DNA of 20,672 bases from a virus, in IMG/VR virus record IMGVR_UViG_3300011113_000381, positions 1-20,672 of that record; one strand, given 5' to 3'. Under the pieces are notes generated by a model. The model was not told the origin of the DNA and made no database searches. It was given only the letters and a program-made list of their open reading frames with translations. Both the position numbers and the translations under genes were made by a program. This document shows positions 1 through 10,530 of the stretch, one piece after another (the stretch's first letter is position 1; each line of letters begins with the position of its first letter).

Positions 1-3000
1 GTAGGAAAGAATGGAGAAACTGTTGTTGGAGGTGGTTGTCCAACATCATGTCTTACCATCACCGAAATGGGAATAGATAATCTTACTTCTGATGCCAATT
101 TAGATCCTTCAGCATGGTTATTAACAAATGATGGCGATCATGGTGAATATCCTAATAATCAAGTAATCTGGACTGATTATACAAGTCCTCCATATTACGG
201 AGGAAATCATTTGCCTTTCGGAATGAGAACTCTTTATCCGGAAGCATGTGAGGGATGGGGGGGAGGTACTGGTCTTTCTGCTTCTGGTTCTGATCTGGAA
301 AATTATGATGGTGGTTATACTCCGGCATTAGGATACGAAGATTCTCCTCCAGATCCGGTATTACTTGATGGATGTCCGTATTATGATATAAGAGGATGGG
401 CGGGTGCTGTAGGATTACATCCTCACGGTTATTTAAATTTTGATGGATCCGGTCCCACAATAGGTAGACCACCAGGATCTTTCAGACAGTTAAAACGAAT
501 AGAAGCAAGAGGACTATGTGGTTCTCCGGGAATAACCCTAACAACTCAAGTTGAAGGAATGGAAGATGTTGCTATGGTTGCGCCATCAGGACATCCATTA
601 GAAATACCACAAGACTTTTACGATCAGCTGTATCCTGATTATATTGCTAATCCTGAAGCGGTACCAGCAAAGGTTGTTGACATAGAATGTGGTGCGTATC
701 ATAACGTTGTAAGACTACAAGACAATTCTATTGTTTGCTGGGGATTAAATTCTATGGGTCAGTGTAATGTTCCTGATTCTCTTAAACCGGATTGGTCCAG
801 ACCAGTAGGAGTTAGTCCGCATCCTAAACGAGATTTAATTTGCAGTATTCATGCAGGATTTAGTACCACAGCAGTTTTATTTAATGATGGAACAGTTTTG
901 TGTTGGGGAGATCCTGATGTTGCTGATGTAGTTAATACATGGGAACATATACGAGTTTCTCCTATAAAAAGACACAGTGGTAATTATACTACATGTTGTA
1001 ACGGAGCAGAAACTGACGGATTCATAGATCCAAATTATCCAGATTTTCCAGCAAACAGATATCCAAACGGCACATACAATATTAACACAGATTGGTTTGG
1101 CCTTTGGAGAACAGGAAAACCAGCGTATCCTCATTTCGATTTAGGAGTAGAAACTAACAGAGTTTATCCTGTAGGTTGGGAAAATATAAGCAGTTTTAAT
1201 ACTTTAACTCCTGACGAAAAACTTATTCCTGGTTATTATTGTAATGTTTGTAATGATCCTAATCAAGGAGGAGTAACATTAGGTAAAGATTTTGCTGTCG
1301 CAATGTTAAGAACAGGTCAGATTGTCACCACAAGAAAAACAAATGCCAGAAATCCTAGTGCAACTTTGTGTAGAGATTGTAATATTGATCAACACTATTC
1401 TGTATCTAATGGACTGATTAAACAAGTAGATATTGGGCGTATGATTCGTTATGATGGTCTGGGAGTTGGTGGAACTTGTTTAGCACTTGCTTTGTTAAAC
1501 GGTGTGGTATTGGAGCAATGTCCAGATACTACATGCGACGAATATAAGCGTTGGAATTTACCACAACAATATACTGACTGTGGTGTATTAACAAATTTAG
1601 AAGGAATTGGTTGTTTTAGTTCTGACACCGGTTTAGAAGCAGCAATTCATGATGCAAACTGGGCAACCATTAGTGGATTTTATACACCAGCAAAACAAGT
1701 ACGACCCGCTTCTCATCCAAACGGAGCATTTCCATCTTGGAATAATGTGGAAGCATCATATGGATGGTCAACAAAAGTAGCTAATGTAGACAGATCTAGA
1801 TTAGGTAGCAACGGTGCTCTAAGTATACCTCCAGAATGCCGGTATCCTGATGACTATGTTCCTAGTAAATGTGTAATGGATTTAGGCAATAATCCTTGTA
1901 ACAGAATATGCCCCAGTCAAGGAGGTTGGGGCGATTTTCGTAGAAATGGTGATCAGAATGGTGTTCCTGGATTCTTTTCGTATCCTTTACATATGGCAAT
2001 AGCATTAAGTTGTGTTGCAGGAACTAATACTGTTAACTGGTTGCATTCGCCAAGAACTATCTCGCAAACTTTACTTGATGAACCAATAAGTTCTGGTGGT
2101 GGTCAGATTAAAGGATCTAACGTTTTAATTAACGATTGCACAAATTATCACCAGGCAAAAGCAGGATGTGGTGAATGTGATTATGTTGGTGGAAATCCTA
2201 ACTATCATTTTGATGAAGTTGCTAGCACCACTAACTCATGTATTTTTGGATTAAATGAGGACACTGATGGACAAGTTAATCCATTAAGGTTAGATAATTC
2301 TAATTGTGGAGGAACGCCCCAAATAGGAGCACTACAACAATTCATGCTTCCGACAAGGCCATGGGGTCCTTGGCAATTATTAACTTCTAGTGGTGTTGCT
2401 ACTCCTCCGTACATGGAAATGACTTTATGTAATTGGGGAGCATTAAGATTTGAATATTGTCCGTATACAACTATACGTCAAAACCCATATACTACTGCTG
2501 CTCCTTCTTTTAATTTAGGAGGTATAGAGTTTGGAAATAGTGATAATCTTCCTGGTTGGTTTGATTTGCATTATGGTGGAGGGCCAACTTATGTGACCAT
2601 ATCTCAAAACGGAACTAGTCCTATATTAAGAAGATCTATAAGAAGAGATGGTGGCATATGGCCAGTATCTGGTCCCTGGAAAGTTGCATTTTTTAATCCA
2701 AATACTCAAGCTCCTTGTTATTATCCTACAGAATGTAATACCCCCACACCAACACCGGACGAAATTCCTAATGACGCTGGACAATACAGCGGAAGATGTC
2801 CTAAAGCTCCACCAGATCCCACATCACCACAAGAACCATTGGCTTATCTTGATTGTTATGAAGGTGGCGCTGGTCCGTGTGCTGGTGGTCTTTTGGGAGG
2901 AGCATTACCTAATATAGCAAAATATTGCTATCCTGATACATTCCCGAGCAAGAAAACATGCACAGATAACAGTGCAGAAATTGTTTGTGGTGCATCTGGT

Positions 3001-3579
3001 TGCGATCAAGGAATGGGAGACGCGTGCAATCGATGGTTCTTTAATAATCCGTGTATATCGTATGCAACAGGAAAGGCATTCGGGGTTTTCTTAAGAAAAT
3101 CTCCTTGGTACAGAGGAATCTCTGGAAGTTCTGGGGTTACTAATGGAGAATTTATTTGGGATAAAACTTGTTCTACTATATCCAGTCAAACCAGACCTAG
3201 AGATTATAGTATTATGGGATGGGATAGACTTGTTCCAGGACTTTCTGGAATTAAAATATGGCTTACTGGAATATTACACGATCCGTGTCCACCATGGCCA
3301 TTAAAAGATGATGAGGGAGGAGCCACGTATGGGATTTATCCTTCATGGGTTCCTGTTCCAACTGCTTCTCGTTCAGCAAGAAAGGGAGGATGGACAGGAT
3401 CTGTTGGATCTAGAACATGGCAACAAATAGGGTTTACTGGGGCAACAGGTCATGAAACATCAATAAATATTAGTGGTTTTACATATAATAGTGTTGCTGT
3501 TCCTGGATTAAATTTATTTGATCCTGTGACATCTACTACTTTTAAAATAACTGAAGCATTGAGAGAATATATTTCATGA
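1..3579 (+). CDS. Large Cys-rich virion-type protein with RCC1-like blades (5' partial)
   Basis: The reading frame is open from base 1, so the true start lies upstream; the first in-frame ATG is at 67. The visible part is 1192 residues and ends in TGA. It contains about 46 cysteines (near 4 percent), very high for a phage structural protein, often in pairs such as CNVC, CRDC and CGEC. Residues about 221-305 hold two RCC1-like blades: the first has ECGAYHNVVRLQDNSIVCWG, the second HAGFSTTAVLFNDGTVLCWG. Weaker blade-like segments lie near residues 427-447 and 488-507. Around residues 755-782 a D-x-DG...GALQ pattern resembles the end of Pmp-type beta-helix domains, but that is weak. Composition is rich in Gly, Pro, Trp, Tyr and Asn, as in secreted or virion surface proteins. 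Function is not recognised; a tail or baseplate appendage is the likeliest role from composition and from the T4-like structural genes nearby. The next gene overlaps its stop by four bases. Confidence 0.75.
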   Translation, partial: VGKNGETVVGGGCPTSCLTITEMGIDNLTSDANLDPSAWLLTNDGDHGEYPNNQVIWTDYTSPPYYGGNHLPFGMRTLYPEACEGWGGGTGLSASGSDLENYDGGYTPALGYEDSPPDPVLLDGCPYYDIRGWAGAVGLHPHGYLNFDGSGPTIGRPPGSFRQLKRIEARGLCGSPGITLTTQVEGMEDVAMVAPSGHPLEIPQDFYDQLYPDYIANPEAVPAKVVDIECGAYHNVVRLQDNSIVCWGLNSMGQCNVPDSLKPDWSRPVGVSPHPKRDLICSIHAGFSTTAVLFNDGTVLCWGDPDVADVVNTWEHIRVSPIKRHSGNYTTCCNGAETDGFIDPNYPDFPANRYPNGTYNINTDWFGLWRTGKPAYPHFDLGVETNRVYPVGWENISSFNTLTPDEKLIPGYYCNVCNDPNQGGVTLGKDFAVAMLRTGQIVTTRKTNARNPSATLCRDCNIDQHYSVSNGLIKQVDIGRMIRYDGLGVGGTCLALALLNGVVLEQCPDTTCDEYKRWNLPQQYTDCGVLTNLEGIGCFSSDTGLEAAIHDANWATISGFYTPAKQVRPASHPNGAFPSWNNVEASYGWSTKVANVDRSRLGSNGALSIPPECRYPDDYVPSKCVMDLGNNPCNRICPSQGGWGDFRRNGDQNGVPGFFSYPLHMAIALSCVAGTNTVNWLHSPRTISQTLLDEPISSGGGQIKGSNVLINDCTNYHQAKAGCGECDYVGGNPNYHFDEVASTTNSCIFGLNEDTDGQVNPLRLDNSNCGGTPQIGALQQFMLPTRPWGPWQLLTSSGVATPPYMEMTLCNWGALRFEYCPYTTIRQNPYTTAAPSFNLGGIEFGNSDNLPGWFDLHYGGGPTYVTISQNGTSPILRRSIRRDGGIWPVSGPWKVAFFNPNTQAPCYYPTECNTPTPTPDEIPNDAGQYSGRCPKAPPDPTSPQEPLAYLDCYEGGAGPCAGGLLGGALPNIAKYCYPDTFPSKKTCTDNSAEIVCGASGCDQGMGDACNRWFFNNPCISYATGKAFGVFLRKSPWYRGISGSSGVTNGEFIWDKTCSTISSQTRPRDYSIMGWDRLVPGLSGIKIWLTGILHDPCPPWPLKDDEGGATYGIYPSWVPVPTASRSARKGGWTGSVGSRTWQQIGFTGATGHETSINISGFTYNSVAVPGLNLFDPVTSTTFKITEALREYIS

Positions 3580-4220
3580 ATAAAGAAAAAATTATTAATT
3601 GTATAAACACAATAAAAGAAAAACATAAAAAAATACAAAACAAAAATAATATATTAAAAACTCCAGAATTTTTAAAAGATTTAAAAGAATGTAATTCTTT
3701 TGCTACTAATAAATCTACAACAATATTATTTGATCAAAATATACAAAATAGAATAAAAGCGATCAATGAAAAATTTAAAAAAATAAAAGAAGAACAAGAA
3801 AAAATTGAAATTAAAAATAAAAAAATTTCTTTTTTTAAAAAAACAAAAATGTATATTTTGGCAGAATTAAATACTATTATTGAAGGCCAAATAAATAAAA
3901 GTCAATACGCTCAAAGAAAATCTGCTTGTTTAGATTGTCATGGTCGTGTAGATTCTATTGAAAATAAAACAGATCCGGGTGGAATAGGATTTTGTTCTCT
4001 TTGTGGTTGTGGTGCTAGTAAACGAGCAGCTTTGTCTGTTAAATTGACAATAGGTGGCGCATCATGTCCTTTAAATAAATGGGAATCACTTAAAGGAACA
4101 GAATGGTCATTTAAAACAGCATTACAAGCATCATCTGGTTTATTTACATCTTTTTATTATCATTTTATAAAAAAAGTAAAACAAATTATTAGAAATAATT
4201 ATAACAAAACGTCTATATAA
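3576..4220 (+). CDS. Coiled-coil protein with C-terminal zinc-ribbon-like motif
   Basis: A 214-residue protein whose ATG overlaps the stop of the upstream gene (ATGA), suggesting coupled translation; a GAGA sequence precedes it. Residues 1-95 are dominated by Lys, Glu, Ile and Asn and look like a charged helix or coiled coil. Residues 118-169 carry C118-x2-C121, C140-x2-C143-x-C145, then K149, C164-P165 and W169. This CxxC...CxxCGC...K...CPxxxW arrangement recurs in small zinc-binding domains of phage and bacterial proteins (DUF6171-like), so metal binding is probable. No catalytic motif is visible. Its place between a virion-type gene and gp33/gp32 does not decide whether it is structural or regulatory. 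The function is unknown; the zinc motif is seen directly and the binding role is inferred. Confidence 0.75.
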   Translation: MNKEKIINCINTIKEKHKKIQNKNNILKTPEFLKDLKECNSFATNKSTTILFDQNIQNRIKAINEKFKKIKEEQEKIEIKNKKISFFKKTKMYILAELNTIIEGQINKSQYAQRKSACLDCHGRVDSIENKTDPGGIGFCSLCGCGASKRAALSVKLTIGGASCPLNKWESLKGTEWSFKTALQASSGLFTSFYYHFIKKVKQIIRNNYNKTSI

Positions 4221-4226
4221 AATACA

Positions 4227-4457
4227 ATGGTATTATATTTTGATGAAGAAACGCAAAATGATTTTTGTAGACAAATAGAAAAATATGTGGAAGAATGGGG
4301 CGTATCTTACATGCATGCAGTTATTTCTGTGTGCGAATCAAAAGATATTCCTGTGGAAAGTGTTGGTAAAATTCTTTCTAAACCAATAATAGAAAAAATT
4401 CAACAAGAAGGACAAGAATTAAACTTTTTGCCCAAATCATCAAAGTTACCAATTTAA
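4227..4457 (+). CDS. 33: gp33-like late transcription coactivator
   Basis: A 76-residue protein. In T4, gp33 bridges RNA polymerase and the gp45 sliding clamp so that late promoters fire when replication is under way. The sequence shows the short marine-phage form as I recall it: an N-terminal acidic helix (DEETQNDFCRQIEKYVEEWG), the central SYMHAVISVCES segment followed by an acidic stretch and a second helix, and the terminal ELNFLPKSSKLPI, close to the LNFLPK...LPI ending of cyanophage gp33 proteins. T4 gp33 is longer (112 residues). It lies directly upstream of gp32; genes 33 and 32 also lie close together in T4. There is no clear Shine-Dalgarno; the start is preceded by an A/T-rich TATATAAAATACA. 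The assignment rests on remembered family patterns, not on a search. Confidence 0.7.
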   Translation: MVLYFDEETQNDFCRQIEKYVEEWGVSYMHAVISVCESKDIPVESVGKILSKPIIEKIQQEGQELNFLPKSSKLPI

Positions 4458-4505: not shown

Positions 4506-5381
4506 ATGTCATTTAAAGATCTAAAGAAGAATTCTACATCAATGGCTTCCAAGCTTCAAGAAGAGCTAGAGAAGACTAATAAGACTAATGATTACAAGGA
4601 TGATCGATTTTGGAGACCGACTCTTGACTCTGCTAGTAATGGATATGCGGTTATCCGATTCCTTCCTTCAGTGGAAGGAGAAGACATTCCATGGGTTAAG
4701 CTGTACTCTCATGCCTTTAAGGGTAAGGGTGGCTGGTTTATTCACAATTGCCCCACAACCATTGGTCAAAAGTGCCCGGTTTGTGAAGCAAACTCTGATC
4801 TATGGAATAGTGGTACTGAAAGTGATAAGCGTATTGCTCGTGATCGTAAGCGTAAGCTTAATTATATTTCCAATATTCTTGTTGTCGAAGATCCCGCCGC
4901 TCCCCAAAATAAAGGTAAGGTGTTCCTATTTAAGTACGGCAAGAAGATTTTTGAGAAGATTCAAGAACAAATGAATCCAGAATTTGATGATGAGACTGCA
5001 GTAAATCCGTTTGACTTCTGGAAGGGTGCTAATTTTAAGCTCAAGGTTCGTAAGGTTGAAGGATATGTAAATTATGATAAGTCTGAGTTTAGTGCAGCAG
5101 CTCCTCTGTTTGATGGTGATGATGCCAAGCTTGAAACACTTTGGAAGACTCAATATGCTCTTAAGCCTTTTGTTGACCCTAAAGAGTTTAAGACATATCC
5201 AGAACTCAAAACCAAGTTGGTTGATGCTCTAGGTAATGATATCCGATCTTCTGGTTCTGATGAGAGGGAAGAAACGATTGAAGACGAACCAGTGGTTCGT
5301 TCAAATCGAAAGCCAGTAAAGACGGACGTGGATGATGATGTGGATGTGGATGAGTATCTAAAGACTCTTGGTGAAGAGTAA
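4506..5381 (+). CDS. 32: gp32 single-stranded DNA-binding protein
   Basis: A 291-residue protein matching T4 gp32 (301 residues), which coats single-stranded DNA during phage replication, recombination and repair. The N-terminal basic helix (MSFKDLKKNS...) corresponds to the cooperativity domain. The core zinc site is recognisable: H69, C82, C90 and C93 reproduce the spacing of T4 H64, C77, C87, C90, except that the middle gap is two residues shorter. The ISNILVVEDPAAPQNKGKVF segment and following KYGKKIFEKI match T4 NILVVKDPAAPENEGKVF and FGKKIWDKI almost residue for residue. The C terminus is strongly acidic (DVDDDVDVDEYLKTLGEE), as in the gp32 tail that recruits replication partners. The gene has its own probable promoter and strong RBS and ends just before a strong terminator. 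Its codon use is distinct: lysine is mostly AAG, whereas surrounding genes use AAA almost exclusively. Confidence 0.97.
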   Translation: MSFKDLKKNSTSMASKLQEELEKTNKTNDYKDDRFWRPTLDSASNGYAVIRFLPSVEGEDIPWVKLYSHAFKGKGGWFIHNCPTTIGQKCPVCEANSDLWNSGTESDKRIARDRKRKLNYISNILVVEDPAAPQNKGKVFLFKYGKKIFEKIQEQMNPEFDDETAVNPFDFWKGANFKLKVRKVEGYVNYDKSEFSAAAPLFDGDDAKLETLWKTQYALKPFVDPKEFKTYPELKTKLVDALGNDIRSSGSDEREETIEDEPVVRSNRKPVKTDVDDDVDVDEYLKTLGEE

Positions 5382-6832: not shown

Positions 6833-7402
6833 TTATGTAATCGTGTAATATCTATAGTTAATATCTACAGTCATAGTTAAATAGTTGTTAGCAGAATCAT
6901 TCATAAATTGAGTTGGTTGTATTGTGGCTGGCCATGCTCCGTATAATATTATAGTTTTATTAATATTGCTATTTTGATCTAAAGCGTAGATATTTAATCT
7001 TCCAACAATATTATCCCAATAATTTAATAGTTTTGATCCTTTATTTTGCAAAAAATTAGAATTGCCATCAACAAAAATTAAATCTAGCCAAGATTCAAAA
7101 AATTGCCGACAATTCCAATTTTTATCTATTATAAAATCTATAATAAAACGATTGTCGTATTCTCTTTTTACAGGTATATCAATAGTATTTGCTGAAGGAG
7201 ATAAGTTGTCTGAAAAATAATTTACAACTTGGCCAGGAACTTGGACCATTGTTGCAAATAGTGGCGGTGGAACCAATCCTAATTGTTGCGGAGGATCTAT
7301 ACTTATTTTAAAACGGTTAGATATTTGAAAACCAGATACCTTCTTAAAAAAAGATATTACGCTATTAACGTCAGAATTATTTAATCCGTTATTGTCTGGC
7401 AT
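6833..7402 (-). CDS. Tail-tube-fold protein (gp54-like tube initiator or gp19-like tube)
   Basis: A 189-residue protein with the pattern of myovirus tube proteins: FQISNRFKISIDPP, then an early strand with VQVPGQVVNYF, PVKREYDNRFIIDFIIDKNW (the R-x-x-x-x-x-F-x-V/I-x-F block), a helix RQFFESWLDLIF, and a late strand LYGAWPATIQP followed by NYLTMTVDINYRYYTI. These correspond to T4 gp19 features (TFDDWTVTVMND, a helix, IKGLWPTNVGEL, FEVTLALDYWE). Genomic place decides between paralogues: it sits with gp4, gp26 and gp48, not with sheath and portal genes, so the tube initiator gp54 is the better guess, though T4 gp54 is longer (320 residues). It starts 14 bases inside the end of gp4, so translation is probably coupled. 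Confidence 0.75.
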   Translation of the reverse strand: MPDNNGLNNSDVNSVISFFKKVSGFQISNRFKISIDPPQQLGLVPPPLFATMVQVPGQVVNYFSDNLSPSANTIDIPVKREYDNRFIIDFIIDKNWNCRQFFESWLDLIFVDGNSNFLQNKGSKLLNYWDNIVGRLNIYALDQNSNINKTIILYGAWPATIQPTQFMNDSANNYLTMTVDINYRYYTIT

Positions 7403-7835
7403 TTTTTGTTTTAAATAAACTTTCTTCTGTTAGAATTTTAAAATTCCAGCCATTTTTCTTACAATATTCTTCTGCAGCTTTCCATTTACAATTATTTATT
7501 TCAAATGTGATGCATTCGTTTAAATATGCTCTTTTATTTTTTTTGGTGTTTGGTTTTACTGTCTGTTTTTTGGGTTTGATTTCTACCACAAAAGTTTGTA
7601 CATCATTATTAACTTTTGCTTCAAATAAAAAGTCAGGATAATAATGATGAATCTGTTTGTCTATTGTAGAAAAATATGGAATTTTTAACTCTTCACTCGC
7701 CCATCTAACAATATTTTGATTTTTATCTAAATATTTACAAAACTTTCTTTCCCAGTTTGAACGACAGATTATATTATTAGAATTGCCAACATATTTGTCT
7801 GGATTTTCTGGAATGTATTTGGTTTTATACGCCAT
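7389..7835 (-). CDS. 4: gp4 head completion protein (PD-(D/E)xK nuclease-like fold)
   Basis: A 148-residue protein matching T4 gp4 (150 residues), also called gp50/gp65 in older work, needed after DNA packaging to complete heads before tail attachment. The start MAYKTKYIPENPDKY aligns with T4 MAYSGKW.P.N..KY, so the ATG at 7835 is chosen over an in-frame TTG nine bases upstream (7844). The RSNWERKF...YLDKN and WASEELKIPYF blocks match T4. Nuclease-like residues are present: P67-D68 in YYPDFLFE and E85-I-K87 in VVEIKPKK, plus E29. The C-terminal KWKAAEEYCKKNGWNFKILTEESL matches T4 KWKAAQSLAEKRGIKFRILTEDGL; to keep within limits, the key residues are KWKAAE and FKILTEE. It is the first gene of the minus-strand unit and diverges from gp48 with 26 bases between starts. 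Confidence 0.95.
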   Translation of the reverse strand: MAYKTKYIPENPDKYVGNSNNIICRSNWERKFCKYLDKNQNIVRWASEELKIPYFSTIDKQIHHYYPDFLFEAKVNNDVQTFVVEIKPKKQTVKPNTKKNKRAYLNECITFEINNCKWKAAEEYCKKNGWNFKILTEESLFKTKNARQ

Positions 7836-7848
7836 ATTTTCCAATATA

Positions 7849-7856
7849 TATTTATA
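7849..7856 (-). promoter_or_regulatory. Candidate T4-type late promoter for the gp4 operon
   Basis: The minus strand reads TATAAATA here, identical to the T4 late promoter core, 13 bases before the gp4 ATG. It is the only exact TATAAATA noticed in a gap between genes. A transcript starting 6-7 bases downstream would have a leader of about 7 bases, shorter than usual, so the site could be fortuitous in this AT-rich gap. A T4-like gp33 encoded nearby makes late promoters of this type plausible. Confidence 0.4.
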
Positions 7857-7861
7857 GTAAA

Positions 7862-8689
7862 ATGCCTACAGTATTACAATATCCTCCCCAATCTGAACCC
7901 TTTTCACTGGAAGTACCTGTATGGATGAATTTTAGGGCTGCTAATTACAGTACTTTTATTAAAAATAGGGTCTTTGATTATATATGGTCTAATGCCTATC
8001 TGGATATCCGTTTGCCATTTCCTAAAGCAATGGCTACTCAAAATTCTCAAAATTATCAAGTAGGCGGTTCTATGAATATATTAGCAGCAGAATTAGGAGC
8101 TGGAGCTGGATCGGCTCAAAGCGGGGGGATGTTCAGTGCACTTGCTCAAGTAGTGGCTGGAGCAGCAACAGGAATACCGTTTGCGCAAGAAGTTATGGCT
8201 AAATCGGAAGCGGAAGCATCGTTTAAGTCTGGAGGTGGTGTTATACGTTTTGATCATTTAGAAACGGTTTTAATGCCAGGAGCTAGACGGACTCACTCTT
8301 TTGTAATAGATTTAGTAGCAAAAACATCAGCTCAAGCATTTTATATAAACGAAATTGCCATGGCATTTCAGACTAATCTTTTTCCTATAGCAAATACCAA
8401 TTCAATTTATACTATGCGCCATCCTCCATTATGGGCAATGCAAGCTTTTGGACCTAATGAGCCAAGATATTGGGATGGTGCTCCACTAGTTTCTGTGTTA
8501 AAAAGTGTAGATATTAATCGTTCTCCTATTATTGCATCACCATTTACTACTGTAGACTATCGACCTTTAGCAGTAAATATAAAACTAGTATTCGTTGAAC
8601 TAGAACCGGCAATGCAGGTAGGTAATGGTAAACTTTCTATATTTTCTAGATCTGATAATATTGCTAAAAAATTAGGCGGAAGTTTATAA
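7862..8689 (+). CDS. 48: gp48 baseplate tail tube cap
   Basis: A 275-residue protein resembling T4 gp48 (364 residues), which caps the baseplate hub-tube junction and with gp54 starts tube polymerisation. The C-terminal half aligns with T4 gp48: HPPLWAMQAFGPNEPRYWDG (residues about 187-206) against T4 NPTVWMVKNFG...FDG, and the later SPFTTVDYRPLAVNIKLVF...E against STFTLEITMREI. A small-residue, hydrophobic helix-like segment (GGMFSALAQVVAGAATGIPF, within residues about 71-115) corresponds to the similar Ala/Gly/Ile stretch in T4. The shorter length reflects a reduced N-terminal region, as in cyanophage forms. No Shine-Dalgarno is visible; the ATG follows TATAGTAAA. It is the first gene of the plus-strand baseplate operon, and its stop overlaps the gp53 start (TAATG). 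Confidence 0.85.
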   Translation: MPTVLQYPPQSEPFSLEVPVWMNFRAANYSTFIKNRVFDYIWSNAYLDIRLPFPKAMATQNSQNYQVGGSMNILAAELGAGAGSAQSGGMFSALAQVVAGAATGIPFAQEVMAKSEAEASFKSGGGVIRFDHLETVLMPGARRTHSFVIDLVAKTSAQAFYINEIAMAFQTNLFPIANTNSIYTMRHPPLWAMQAFGPNEPRYWDGAPLVSVLKSVDINRSPIIASPFTTVDYRPLAVNIKLVFVELEPAMQVGNGKLSIFSRSDNIAKKLGGSL

Positions 8690-10530
8690 TGATTAATTTA
8701 TTTCCAACTATAGATTATAGTTTAATTAGTGGCCAAACTTTACAGTTTGTTGATATTTTTAAAACTGTTAATATAGAATTTAAAAATAAAAATTTATTAC
8801 AAACTACTACTAAAATAATAGGAGAAAGACCAGATCAATTATCGTATAGATTATATCAATCTTCTAATTATTACTGGTCTCTATTTTTAACAAATAACAT
8901 TAAAAATCCATTTAAAGAATGGGGTCAATCAGAAGAAGCCTTTAATAAAAAAATAGAAAAAGAATATGAAGGATTTGTATATCAGTTTGCAAATAATTCA
9001 AAATATCTTCCTCCAGAAAATTCTTATCCAATACAAAATACTGATATTGATGTTTATACTGGAGTAGATTTTTCTAATATATCTGCTGGTGATCTTATCA
9101 TGGTAGAAACCGGAGAAGGTTCTTATTCTATAAAATGTTTAGGAGCTGGTATTGTTGTTTCTACAGATTTTTGTGGTGATCCGCAACGAGGGCAGAGTAT
9201 AGTTCCAGATGATTTAGATATACAAAAAAATATTAAACAAGTTTCGTGTGGAGGATATTTTAGTTCTTGTTTAGATACTTCTGGAAGAATTTACGCATGG
9301 GGTAAAGACATAGGTTTTAATGATTCGCCTTATGGATTTTTATCAAAATCATCTAAAGGATTATATAAATCTATATCCTCTGGTTTTACTTTTATAAATG
9401 CTTCCGGAGACAGAATTATTGCAATAAAAAATGATGGTGGATTAACTTGTTTTGGAGATTGCTCTAAAGATTTTAGTATACATTATGATGGAGACACAGG
9501 ATTTGTTAAAACTTATTGGACTAAAGGTTTGTGTGGTGGTATAGGTATTAAAAATGACGGAACTGTTAAATATTATGGTATAACCGGTCCTAATGTTCAA
9601 TTACACGATGCAGATTGTGGTTTAAATTATTGTGTTGGAGTTTTAAAATCAAATTTTGGTTTAACCGGATTTGGTGGTATAAGTCCTTTTAATGAATATA
9701 AAACAAACTTTCCTTCTGGTATAACAGGATTTACTGGTGTGGCTGCAGGACTATATCACAATATAGCCATAAACAGTAAAGGAGGATTGTGTGGTTTTGG
9801 TATTAGTGCTGAAGGTAGAACAATTGTCCCTAATAGCACATCAATTTATAAAACAGTTTCTGCTGGCAGATATCATTCTGCGGCATTAGATCAAAACAAT
9901 AAATTAGTTACATGGGGAAGTATTGCCACATATCTTGGTAGTTGTGTGGGAACAGAAACTAAGGCATCGATTACAAATGTTAGTGGAACTTATTCTTTAT
10001 TGGATTCTGGATTTGATCATTTAATATTAAGAAGTTCAGGAACAGTAAAACGATATATTGGTGTAATTAATAGTGTTGACACTTTATTTAAAAAAATAAA
10101 TGTAAAATCTTATCAATACTCTGACATAAATCCTCTATTAACAACACAAGATATTGATCCTAGTGGTTCCGTTGTTTCTATTTGGAGATATAATCAAAGC
10201 TCAGAACAATATGAAGAAATTAAAACTATACAAAATAAACTGCTAACAATACAAAAATATTTAGATGGAGTTTTATATATTAAAATTGCAGGAAATGTTA
10301 TAGATCCGTCTGTTAATAATAATTTTAAAAATATATATTTGCCTAATTATAAAAATGCAGACGATGAAGAGTCTTTTGATACATTAAGAAAACAACTAAC
10401 AAATCAAAATATTTATAACACTAAACAAATAAAATATTTAAGTAATAACGGTGTACAAGTATTAGAAAATACTGTTTCTGGTATTTTGAATGGAACAACC
10501 ACTGAAACTACTGTAACGGATGTAACATGA
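8689..10530 (+). CDS. 53: gp53 baseplate wedge protein with inserted RCC1-like propeller region
   Basis: A 613-residue protein; T4 gp53 is 196 residues. gp53 clamps neighbouring baseplate wedges together around the hub. The N-terminal 110 residues are recognisable: VDIFKTV, then GERPDQLSYRLYQSSNYYWS, LFLTNNIKNPFKEWGQSEEAF, matching T4 GSPRPEELANAIYGNPQLYW, LLMCND..DP..GWITSQEAA. The C-terminal NTKQIKYLSNNGVQVLENTVSGILNG matches T4 LRQIKIIAKSDINSFMNDL (key part: KQIKYLS). Between them, residues about 180-458 form RCC1-like repeats: VSCGGYFSSCLDTSGRIYAWG, ISSGFTFI...AIKNDGGLTCFG, GGIGIKNDGTVKYYG, VAAGLYHNIAINSKGGLCGFG, VSAGRYHSAALDQNNKLVTWG, giving W204-G205 and W409-G410 anchors. The insert sits between GDLIMVETGEGSYSIK and KRYIGVINSVDTLFKKINV, which look like halves of one small beta domain. 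The start overlaps the gp48 stop; GGCGGA lies eight bases upstream. Confidence 0.85.
   Translation: MINLFPTIDYSLISGQTLQFVDIFKTVNIEFKNKNLLQTTTKIIGERPDQLSYRLYQSSNYYWSLFLTNNIKNPFKEWGQSEEAFNKKIEKEYEGFVYQFANNSKYLPPENSYPIQNTDIDVYTGVDFSNISAGDLIMVETGEGSYSIKCLGAGIVVSTDFCGDPQRGQSIVPDDLDIQKNIKQVSCGGYFSSCLDTSGRIYAWGKDIGFNDSPYGFLSKSSKGLYKSISSGFTFINASGDRIIAIKNDGGLTCFGDCSKDFSIHYDGDTGFVKTYWTKGLCGGIGIKNDGTVKYYGITGPNVQLHDADCGLNYCVGVLKSNFGLTGFGGISPFNEYKTNFPSGITGFTGVAAGLYHNIAINSKGGLCGFGISAEGRTIVPNSTSIYKTVSAGRYHSAALDQNNKLVTWGSIATYLGSCVGTETKASITNVSGTYSLLDSGFDHLILRSSGTVKRYIGVINSVDTLFKKINVKSYQYSDINPLLTTQDIDPSGSVVSIWRYNQSSEQYEEIKTIQNKLLTIQKYLDGVLYIKIAGNVIDPSVNNNFKNIYLPNYKNADDEESFDTLRKQLTNQNIYNTKQIKYLSNNGVQVLENTVSGILNGTTTETTVTDVT

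Follow-up and report, generated by a model that had tools for sequence, protein, structure and literature searches.

A cysteine-rich RCC1-type phage protein and its zinc-ribbon partner gene recur in T4-like phages and siphophages

Phage tail fibres and receptor-binding proteins with a dedicated chaperone are known, for example of the T4 gp38 or Tfa type. RCC1 repeats have also been found in phage particles: by mass spectrometry, virions contained three RCC1-like proteins in Escherichia phage W70 (PMC11370258), several "DNA condensation proteins" in phAPEC6 (PMC7247149) and the RCC1-like Gp1 in GAP32 (PMC5259590). For the first two phages the authors suggested, from the family name, a role in ordering DNA in the capsid (PMC7247149, PMC11370258). 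These PHROG 4219 proteins share RCC1 repeats with the protein analysed here but have a mass of ~30-44 kDa and often occur in several copies per genome, and the relevant passages of the reports describe no Cys-rich loops, no N-terminal head with three cysteines (CCC head) and no zinc-ribbon partner. Cellular RCC1, RPGR, UVR8 and BLIP-II match two blades of our protein by sequence; in contrast to them, it has ~1000 further Cys-rich residues, only these two recognisable blades, and no sign of an exchange-factor, light-sensing or inhibitor function. Like fibre and chaperone systems, the CCC protein and its partner gene, together referred to as the CCC module, have a conserved short N-terminus, an exchangeable body, a small adjacent downstream gene and, in several relatives, a late or tail gene setting. 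However, there is no sequence similarity to such systems, no trimeric fibre repeats were seen, the partner is a zinc-ribbon protein, and the head comprises only ~10 residues with three cysteines.

The window, i.e. the whole stretch of DNA that was analysed, is a complete viral record of 20,672 bases with T4-like genes for gp32, a head-closure protein, the baseplate protein gp53 and further baseplate proteins. The features of interest are:

1..3579, plus strand, Cys-rich RCC1-type protein, 1192 residues, 5' truncated at the contig end (open reading frame call and alignments)
673..762, plus strand, RCC1 blade, residues 225-254, VVDIECGAYHNVVRLQDNSIVCWGLNSMGQ (Pfam RCC1_2/WD40_RLD and PDB RCC1-fold chains)
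838..915, plus strand, RCC1 blade, residues 280-305, ICSIHAGFSTTAVLFNDGTVLCWGDP (second Pfam RCC1_2 stretch; coordinates by eye from the alignment)
1282..1338, plus strand, possible further blade, residues 428-446, GKDFAVAMLRTGQIVTTRK (family-wide conservation; alignment only)
1369..1380, plus strand, CRDC motif, Cys 457 and Cys 460, of which Cys 460 is invariant
3576..4220, plus strand, partner, a 214-aa helical protein with a zinc ribbon, its start overlapping the stop of the Cys-rich gene (ATGA)
3915..4076, plus strand, zinc ribbon of the partner, residues 114-167, R..C-x2-C...GFC-x2-C-G-C...K...CP, invariant in 33 sequences, pLDDT ~85-95
4506..5381, plus strand, gp32-like ssDNA-binding protein, given as context, the fixed right border of a variable slot

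The open frame at 1-3579 with its 1192 visible residues is real, as the initial annotation had it, and its 5' end is open; the cysteines, put there at about 46, number exactly 46, and the two RCC1-like blades are borne out by two Pfam RCC1_2 stretches (E 1.2e-14; 54 bits against a curated cut-off of 22). The label "giant" stands only in a relative sense because alignment to a full-length relative (L012) indicates that ~67 N-terminal residues are absent from the window and that the full protein is expected to have ~1260 residues. Full-length relatives have 1276-2210 residues with 47-71 cysteines and begin with MSRWNPCCC or a similar sequence followed by RAGWYHF, a stretch that reads as another RCC1 blade; judged from them, the missing residues should hold the CCC head and the first, or one more, blade. 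AlphaFold2 modelled the large protein with a mean pLDDT of 28, and only residues ~199-310 reached moderate confidence, with the blade at 838..915 at pLDDT 60-83. Beyond the two blades recognisable by sequence, alignment alone suggests others, of which residues 428-446 are a possible one, and the large protein may form a complete, seven-bladed RCC1-type propeller. Cys, Trp and Gly are abundant and lysine is low (2.4%). The earlier statement that the protein belongs to no recognised phage family also holds: its best PHROG match, phrog_4219, has an E-value of 0.12 over only 84 residues, which does not place it in that family, and there were no matches in 50,697 isolate phage records.

A single-sequence search of IMG/VR and isolate phages with the whole window ORF returned nothing. 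Searching with gp32 gave 80 related contigs, in ~10 of which a homologue of the window ORF lies upstream of gp32. A profile search extended the family to L100, a virus of quite another kind, and subsequently to eight contigs of siphophage type, whose homologues are 60-64% identical to L100 and ~30% identical to the window protein, with which they are collinear and aligned over the whole length. L100 encodes an HK97-type head protease, a major head protein, a head-tail adaptor and a major tail protein, and the GC content of this group is ~62%. The ORF and its cysteines are conserved across T4-like and siphophage backbones. A scan of bacterial genomes with the Cys-rich family recovered ordinary RCC1 proteins, none of which matched the Cys-rich part. 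The seven longest related records lack psbA, making a cyanobacterial host less likely.

In a 15-sequence alignment, counted wherever positions align, 14 cysteines of the window protein (301, 414, 460, 507, 512, 538, 624, 633, 637, 723, 726, 1001, 1057 and 1096) are invariant from T4-like members to the ~30%-identical siphophage homologues; the possibility that the cysteines are unconserved in homologues, which would have spoken against the initial reading, is thereby answered. Only Trp is more strongly conserved than cysteine, and 48% of aligned cysteines are at least 90% conserved. At each position of the CCC head, the residue is retained by 13 or 14 of the 14 members in which this region is present. 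One part of the initial description did not survive. Cysteines said to lie in many close pairs do so no more than by chance, i.e. 8 neighbouring pairs are at most 5 residues apart against 8.06 expected for 46 cysteines placed at random in 1192 residues, and most are scattered along the protein. As to the "secreted-looking" sequence, inspection by eye of the full-length relatives revealed no obvious N-terminal hydrophobic signal and, instead, the CCC head. Three spaced pairs, CxxC (723/726), Cx3C (633/637) and Cx4C (507/512), are invariant. Many lineage-specific cysteines are gained or lost together, two or more at a time, and 1110/1159 are jointly absent from several T4-like members, in an alignment that is small and in which related sequences are not independent.

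The structure model of the partner (mean pLDDT 82) consists of long helices and a ribbon holding six invariant cysteines; residues R114, C118, C121, G138, C140, C143, G144, C145, K156, C164 and P165 are invariant in 33 sequences, a pattern from which the protein probably binds zinc. Comparison of its fold gave matches to proteins of uncultured Caudovirales (E 2e-5 and up), all of them uncharacterised, and none in the PDB. Weak matches linked phrog_13558 to the small form of the partner (E 3.9e-5) and DUF6171 to 2 of 8 partners; these families are both of unknown function, and their descriptions, unlike the loci described here, mention no Cys-rich gene. Cyanophage matches to the partner fell short of significance (E 0.06 and above), lay in neighbourhoods without a clear pair, and were rejected.

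The conserved partner and the wider CCC module, which are our main result, lie beyond the 1-3579 stretch of the initial description and were not noticed there. Homologues of the partner trail the Cys-rich gene in both the T4-like and the siphophage viruses, and follow a different Cys-rich protein in two further contigs (L042 and L064). A search with only the partner found 75 loci, of which 73 were analysed; a Cys-rich gene lies immediately upstream in 70 of these 73, counts in which many loci are near-duplicates and, hence, not independent events. CCC is present within the first 80 residues as called in 63 of 67 complete upstream proteins; counted from the likely start, it usually lies within the first 10. 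As controls, CCC occurs in the first 45 residues of only 2 of 826 other ORFs of the partner loci, and a Cys content of 3.5% is reached by 85 of 691; many of these 85 are probably no genuine genes but spurious frames of the kind that GC-rich DNA produces. Stop and start overlap in 19 of 22 inspected pairs and are separated by at most 5 nt in the other 3 (counted by eye). Judging from this overlap, the two genes are apparently translated together. The partner is not obligatory, because it is missing from a 118-kb and a 154-kb record, possibly fragments, that carry a CCC protein or a family member. Partners of small CCC proteins (L222 7845-8354, L211, L216, L245 and L258) have, in addition, a Cys motif at the N-terminus, CDHWSxC...GGGCCAAGHYGGRPSxGVCxxCPHRV.

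BLAST groups the CCC proteins into ~19 clusters that have only the CCC head in common, and their Cys content ranges from 3 to 12%. One and the same head, (M/V)SMM(Q/M)AGCCCG, precedes bodies of 950 aa (with RCC1 repeats), 433 aa and 190-230 aa. A conserved N-terminal head is, therefore, combined with an exchangeable body, and a small adjacent gene follows with overlapping stop and start. Because the pair is present in very different phages, it looks like an exchangeable surface part. Isolate phages gave no match to the module, and family libraries gave weak ones only. A second very Cys-rich family (L263 4033-7809, plus strand, 1258 aa with 81 Cys; L250 3022-7839, plus strand, 1605 aa with 115 Cys) starts with MSCxC, without a CCC head, and is followed by the same partner; in another contig (L198), a 787-aa CCC protein (MGSRRCCC) lies just before a Cys-rich protein of this second type.

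The genomic setting differs between groups, with many of the neighbouring genes named by eye. In the window clade, the slot is flanked by a Dps-like gene and gp32, and close relatives hold different CCC proteins in it, some on the opposite strand. Placement in a tail or late cluster is observed in L004/L194, the siphophages and a bacterial locus (L279), but not in the window clade. Specifically, in L004 a 2247-aa CCC protein with RCC1 repeats lies inside a baseplate operon, between a hub-like gene and tail-protein/gp25/gp6 genes, and in the siphophages the pair is at the end of the late operon, after tape-measure and lysis-type genes (names partly by eye). In bacterial genomes, where the neighbourhood search started from Planctomycetaceae and a second centre, tail operons end with a gene for a short protein carrying a CGCC-type cluster, followed by a weak relative of the partner; in one of these operons (L279), the tape-measure protein is securely identified (E 2.9e-64). 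PHROG annotation of the neighbours in L264 and L267 gave nothing, and these loci were dropped as evidence of a structural setting. An exact T4 late-promoter box, TATAAATA, precedes the CCC gene by 18 nt in L004 and by 52 nt in L031, and the remaining intergenic copies mostly precede structural genes.

Several further genes were noted in these regions. In L031 (7572-9660, minus strand), L002, L005, L022 and others, two minus-strand genes occupy the slot before gp32, one encoding a protein of ~410 aa (MPDTD...) and the second variable, with no Pfam or PHROG match. A 76-aa gene before gp32 (window 4227-4457, plus strand), which from the T4 gene order we take to be possibly gp33-like, is conserved in relatives and preceded by the late-promoter box in L020, L021 and L024. 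The head-closure protein (window 7389-7844, minus strand; phrog_218, E 5.9e-53) includes an endonuclease domain resembling TnsA (Pfam, E 1.7e-20), and its gene lies by an exact box at 7856. RCC1 repeats recur elsewhere, too. The window's baseplate wedge protein gp53 (8689-10530, plus strand; Pfam Phage_gp53, E 1.8e-8) has an inserted RCC1 domain; it has whole-length relatives in many related contigs, and only its first ~90 residues match isolate phages. A common origin of this insert and the Cys-rich protein is unsupported beyond the shared repeat. In L196 (7126-11298, plus strand), a stand-alone 1390-aa RCC1 protein is encoded directly after a 1313-aa gp53-RCC1 gene in a baseplate operon. A 5041-aa ORF in L195 (2619-17744, minus strand) combines a collagen-like GPxGPx start with RCC1 repeats and 101 Cys, and is apparently a giant tail fibre.

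We suggest, with moderate confidence, that the Cys-rich protein is a late virion appendage, probably of the tail or baseplate and host-binding, with an N-terminal docking head and a dedicated assembly partner, by analogy to a tail fibre and its chaperone rather than as a member of a known family. Virion location, host binding, the chaperone role and the state of the cysteines are what we infer from the conservation and gene arrangements above. In this working model, the blades of an RCC1-type beta-propeller would alternate with long Cys/Trp-rich loops in the body, and propeller and loops together would make up a variable, exposed and probably host-binding part, and the short head ending in CCC would dock the protein to the particle or to the partner. 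The downstream coiled-coil/zinc-ribbon protein would be a dedicated chaperone or loader, made in step with the CCC protein, which it may recognise or protect such that thiols are kept reduced or zinc-bound until assembly. Bodies would be swapped freely between phages, with head and partner retained. Against an appendage, the gene in the window clade lies among non-structural genes (Dps-like, gp32), outside the tail operon.

The same neighbours, including a UV endonuclease-like gene named by eye, would suit an intracellular host-takeover or stress module in which the Cys-rich protein binds metals or thiols and the partner supplies or exchanges metal, as would the lack of an apparent signal sequence and the combination of 3-12% Cys with a zinc-ribbon partner. 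We judge this unlikely because one relative resides in a baseplate operon, siphophage copies follow tape-measure and lysis genes, bacterial relatives lie in a tail operon, a late promoter matches and RCC1 proteins are known in virions; moreover, a constant head with a wholly exchanged body is the typical pattern of a receptor-binding protein rather than of an enzyme or a metal store. The role proposed for the RCC1-like proteins of phAPEC6 and W70, namely DNA condensation or organisation inside the virion, would agree with the RCC1 similarity and with the published suggestion, which in the passages concerned rests on the family name (PMC7247149, PMC11370258). We regard such a role as very unlikely for a protein with so little lysine and so much Cys, Trp and Gly; because RCC1 repeats are also present in the window gp53 and the collagen-like giant protein of L195, a role as a tail part is more economical here.

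Within the appendage model, the cysteines might hold metal (zinc or iron-sulfur) instead of forming disulfides, with the partner as a metal chaperone. The invariant CxxC-type pairs allow for metal; the CCC head is in line with it, as is the partner's zinc ribbon. However, with most cysteines scattered and close pairs at chance level, we consider this variant improbable, and disulfides would fit better because Cys sets such as 1110/1159 come and go together, with the above reservation about a small alignment of related sequences. A more far-reaching version of the appendage model, which we consider rather unlikely, is that of an undescribed, widespread module in which a CCC thiol tag and a zinc-ribbon partner load very diverse Cys-rich proteins onto virions of unrelated phages, with cysteines reduced or metal-bound in the cell and converted to disulfides after release. 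If true, phages would here dock or mature their surface proteins in a redox-dependent manner.

RCC1 virion proteins are already known from other phages; for the pairing of a CCC protein with a zinc-ribbon protein, we found no description in the literature. Our analysis argues against naming phage RCC1 proteins for "DNA condensation". Surface proteins rich in disulfides or metal are hard to square with assembly in a reducing cytoplasm, and a head and a partner common to T4-like phages and siphophages offer a concrete, testable system for the handling of such proteins. Receptor-binding proteins of uncultivated phages are usually unrecognisable, and the rule of a CCC-head gene whose end overlaps a zinc-ribbon gene would point to likely host-binding proteins among them.
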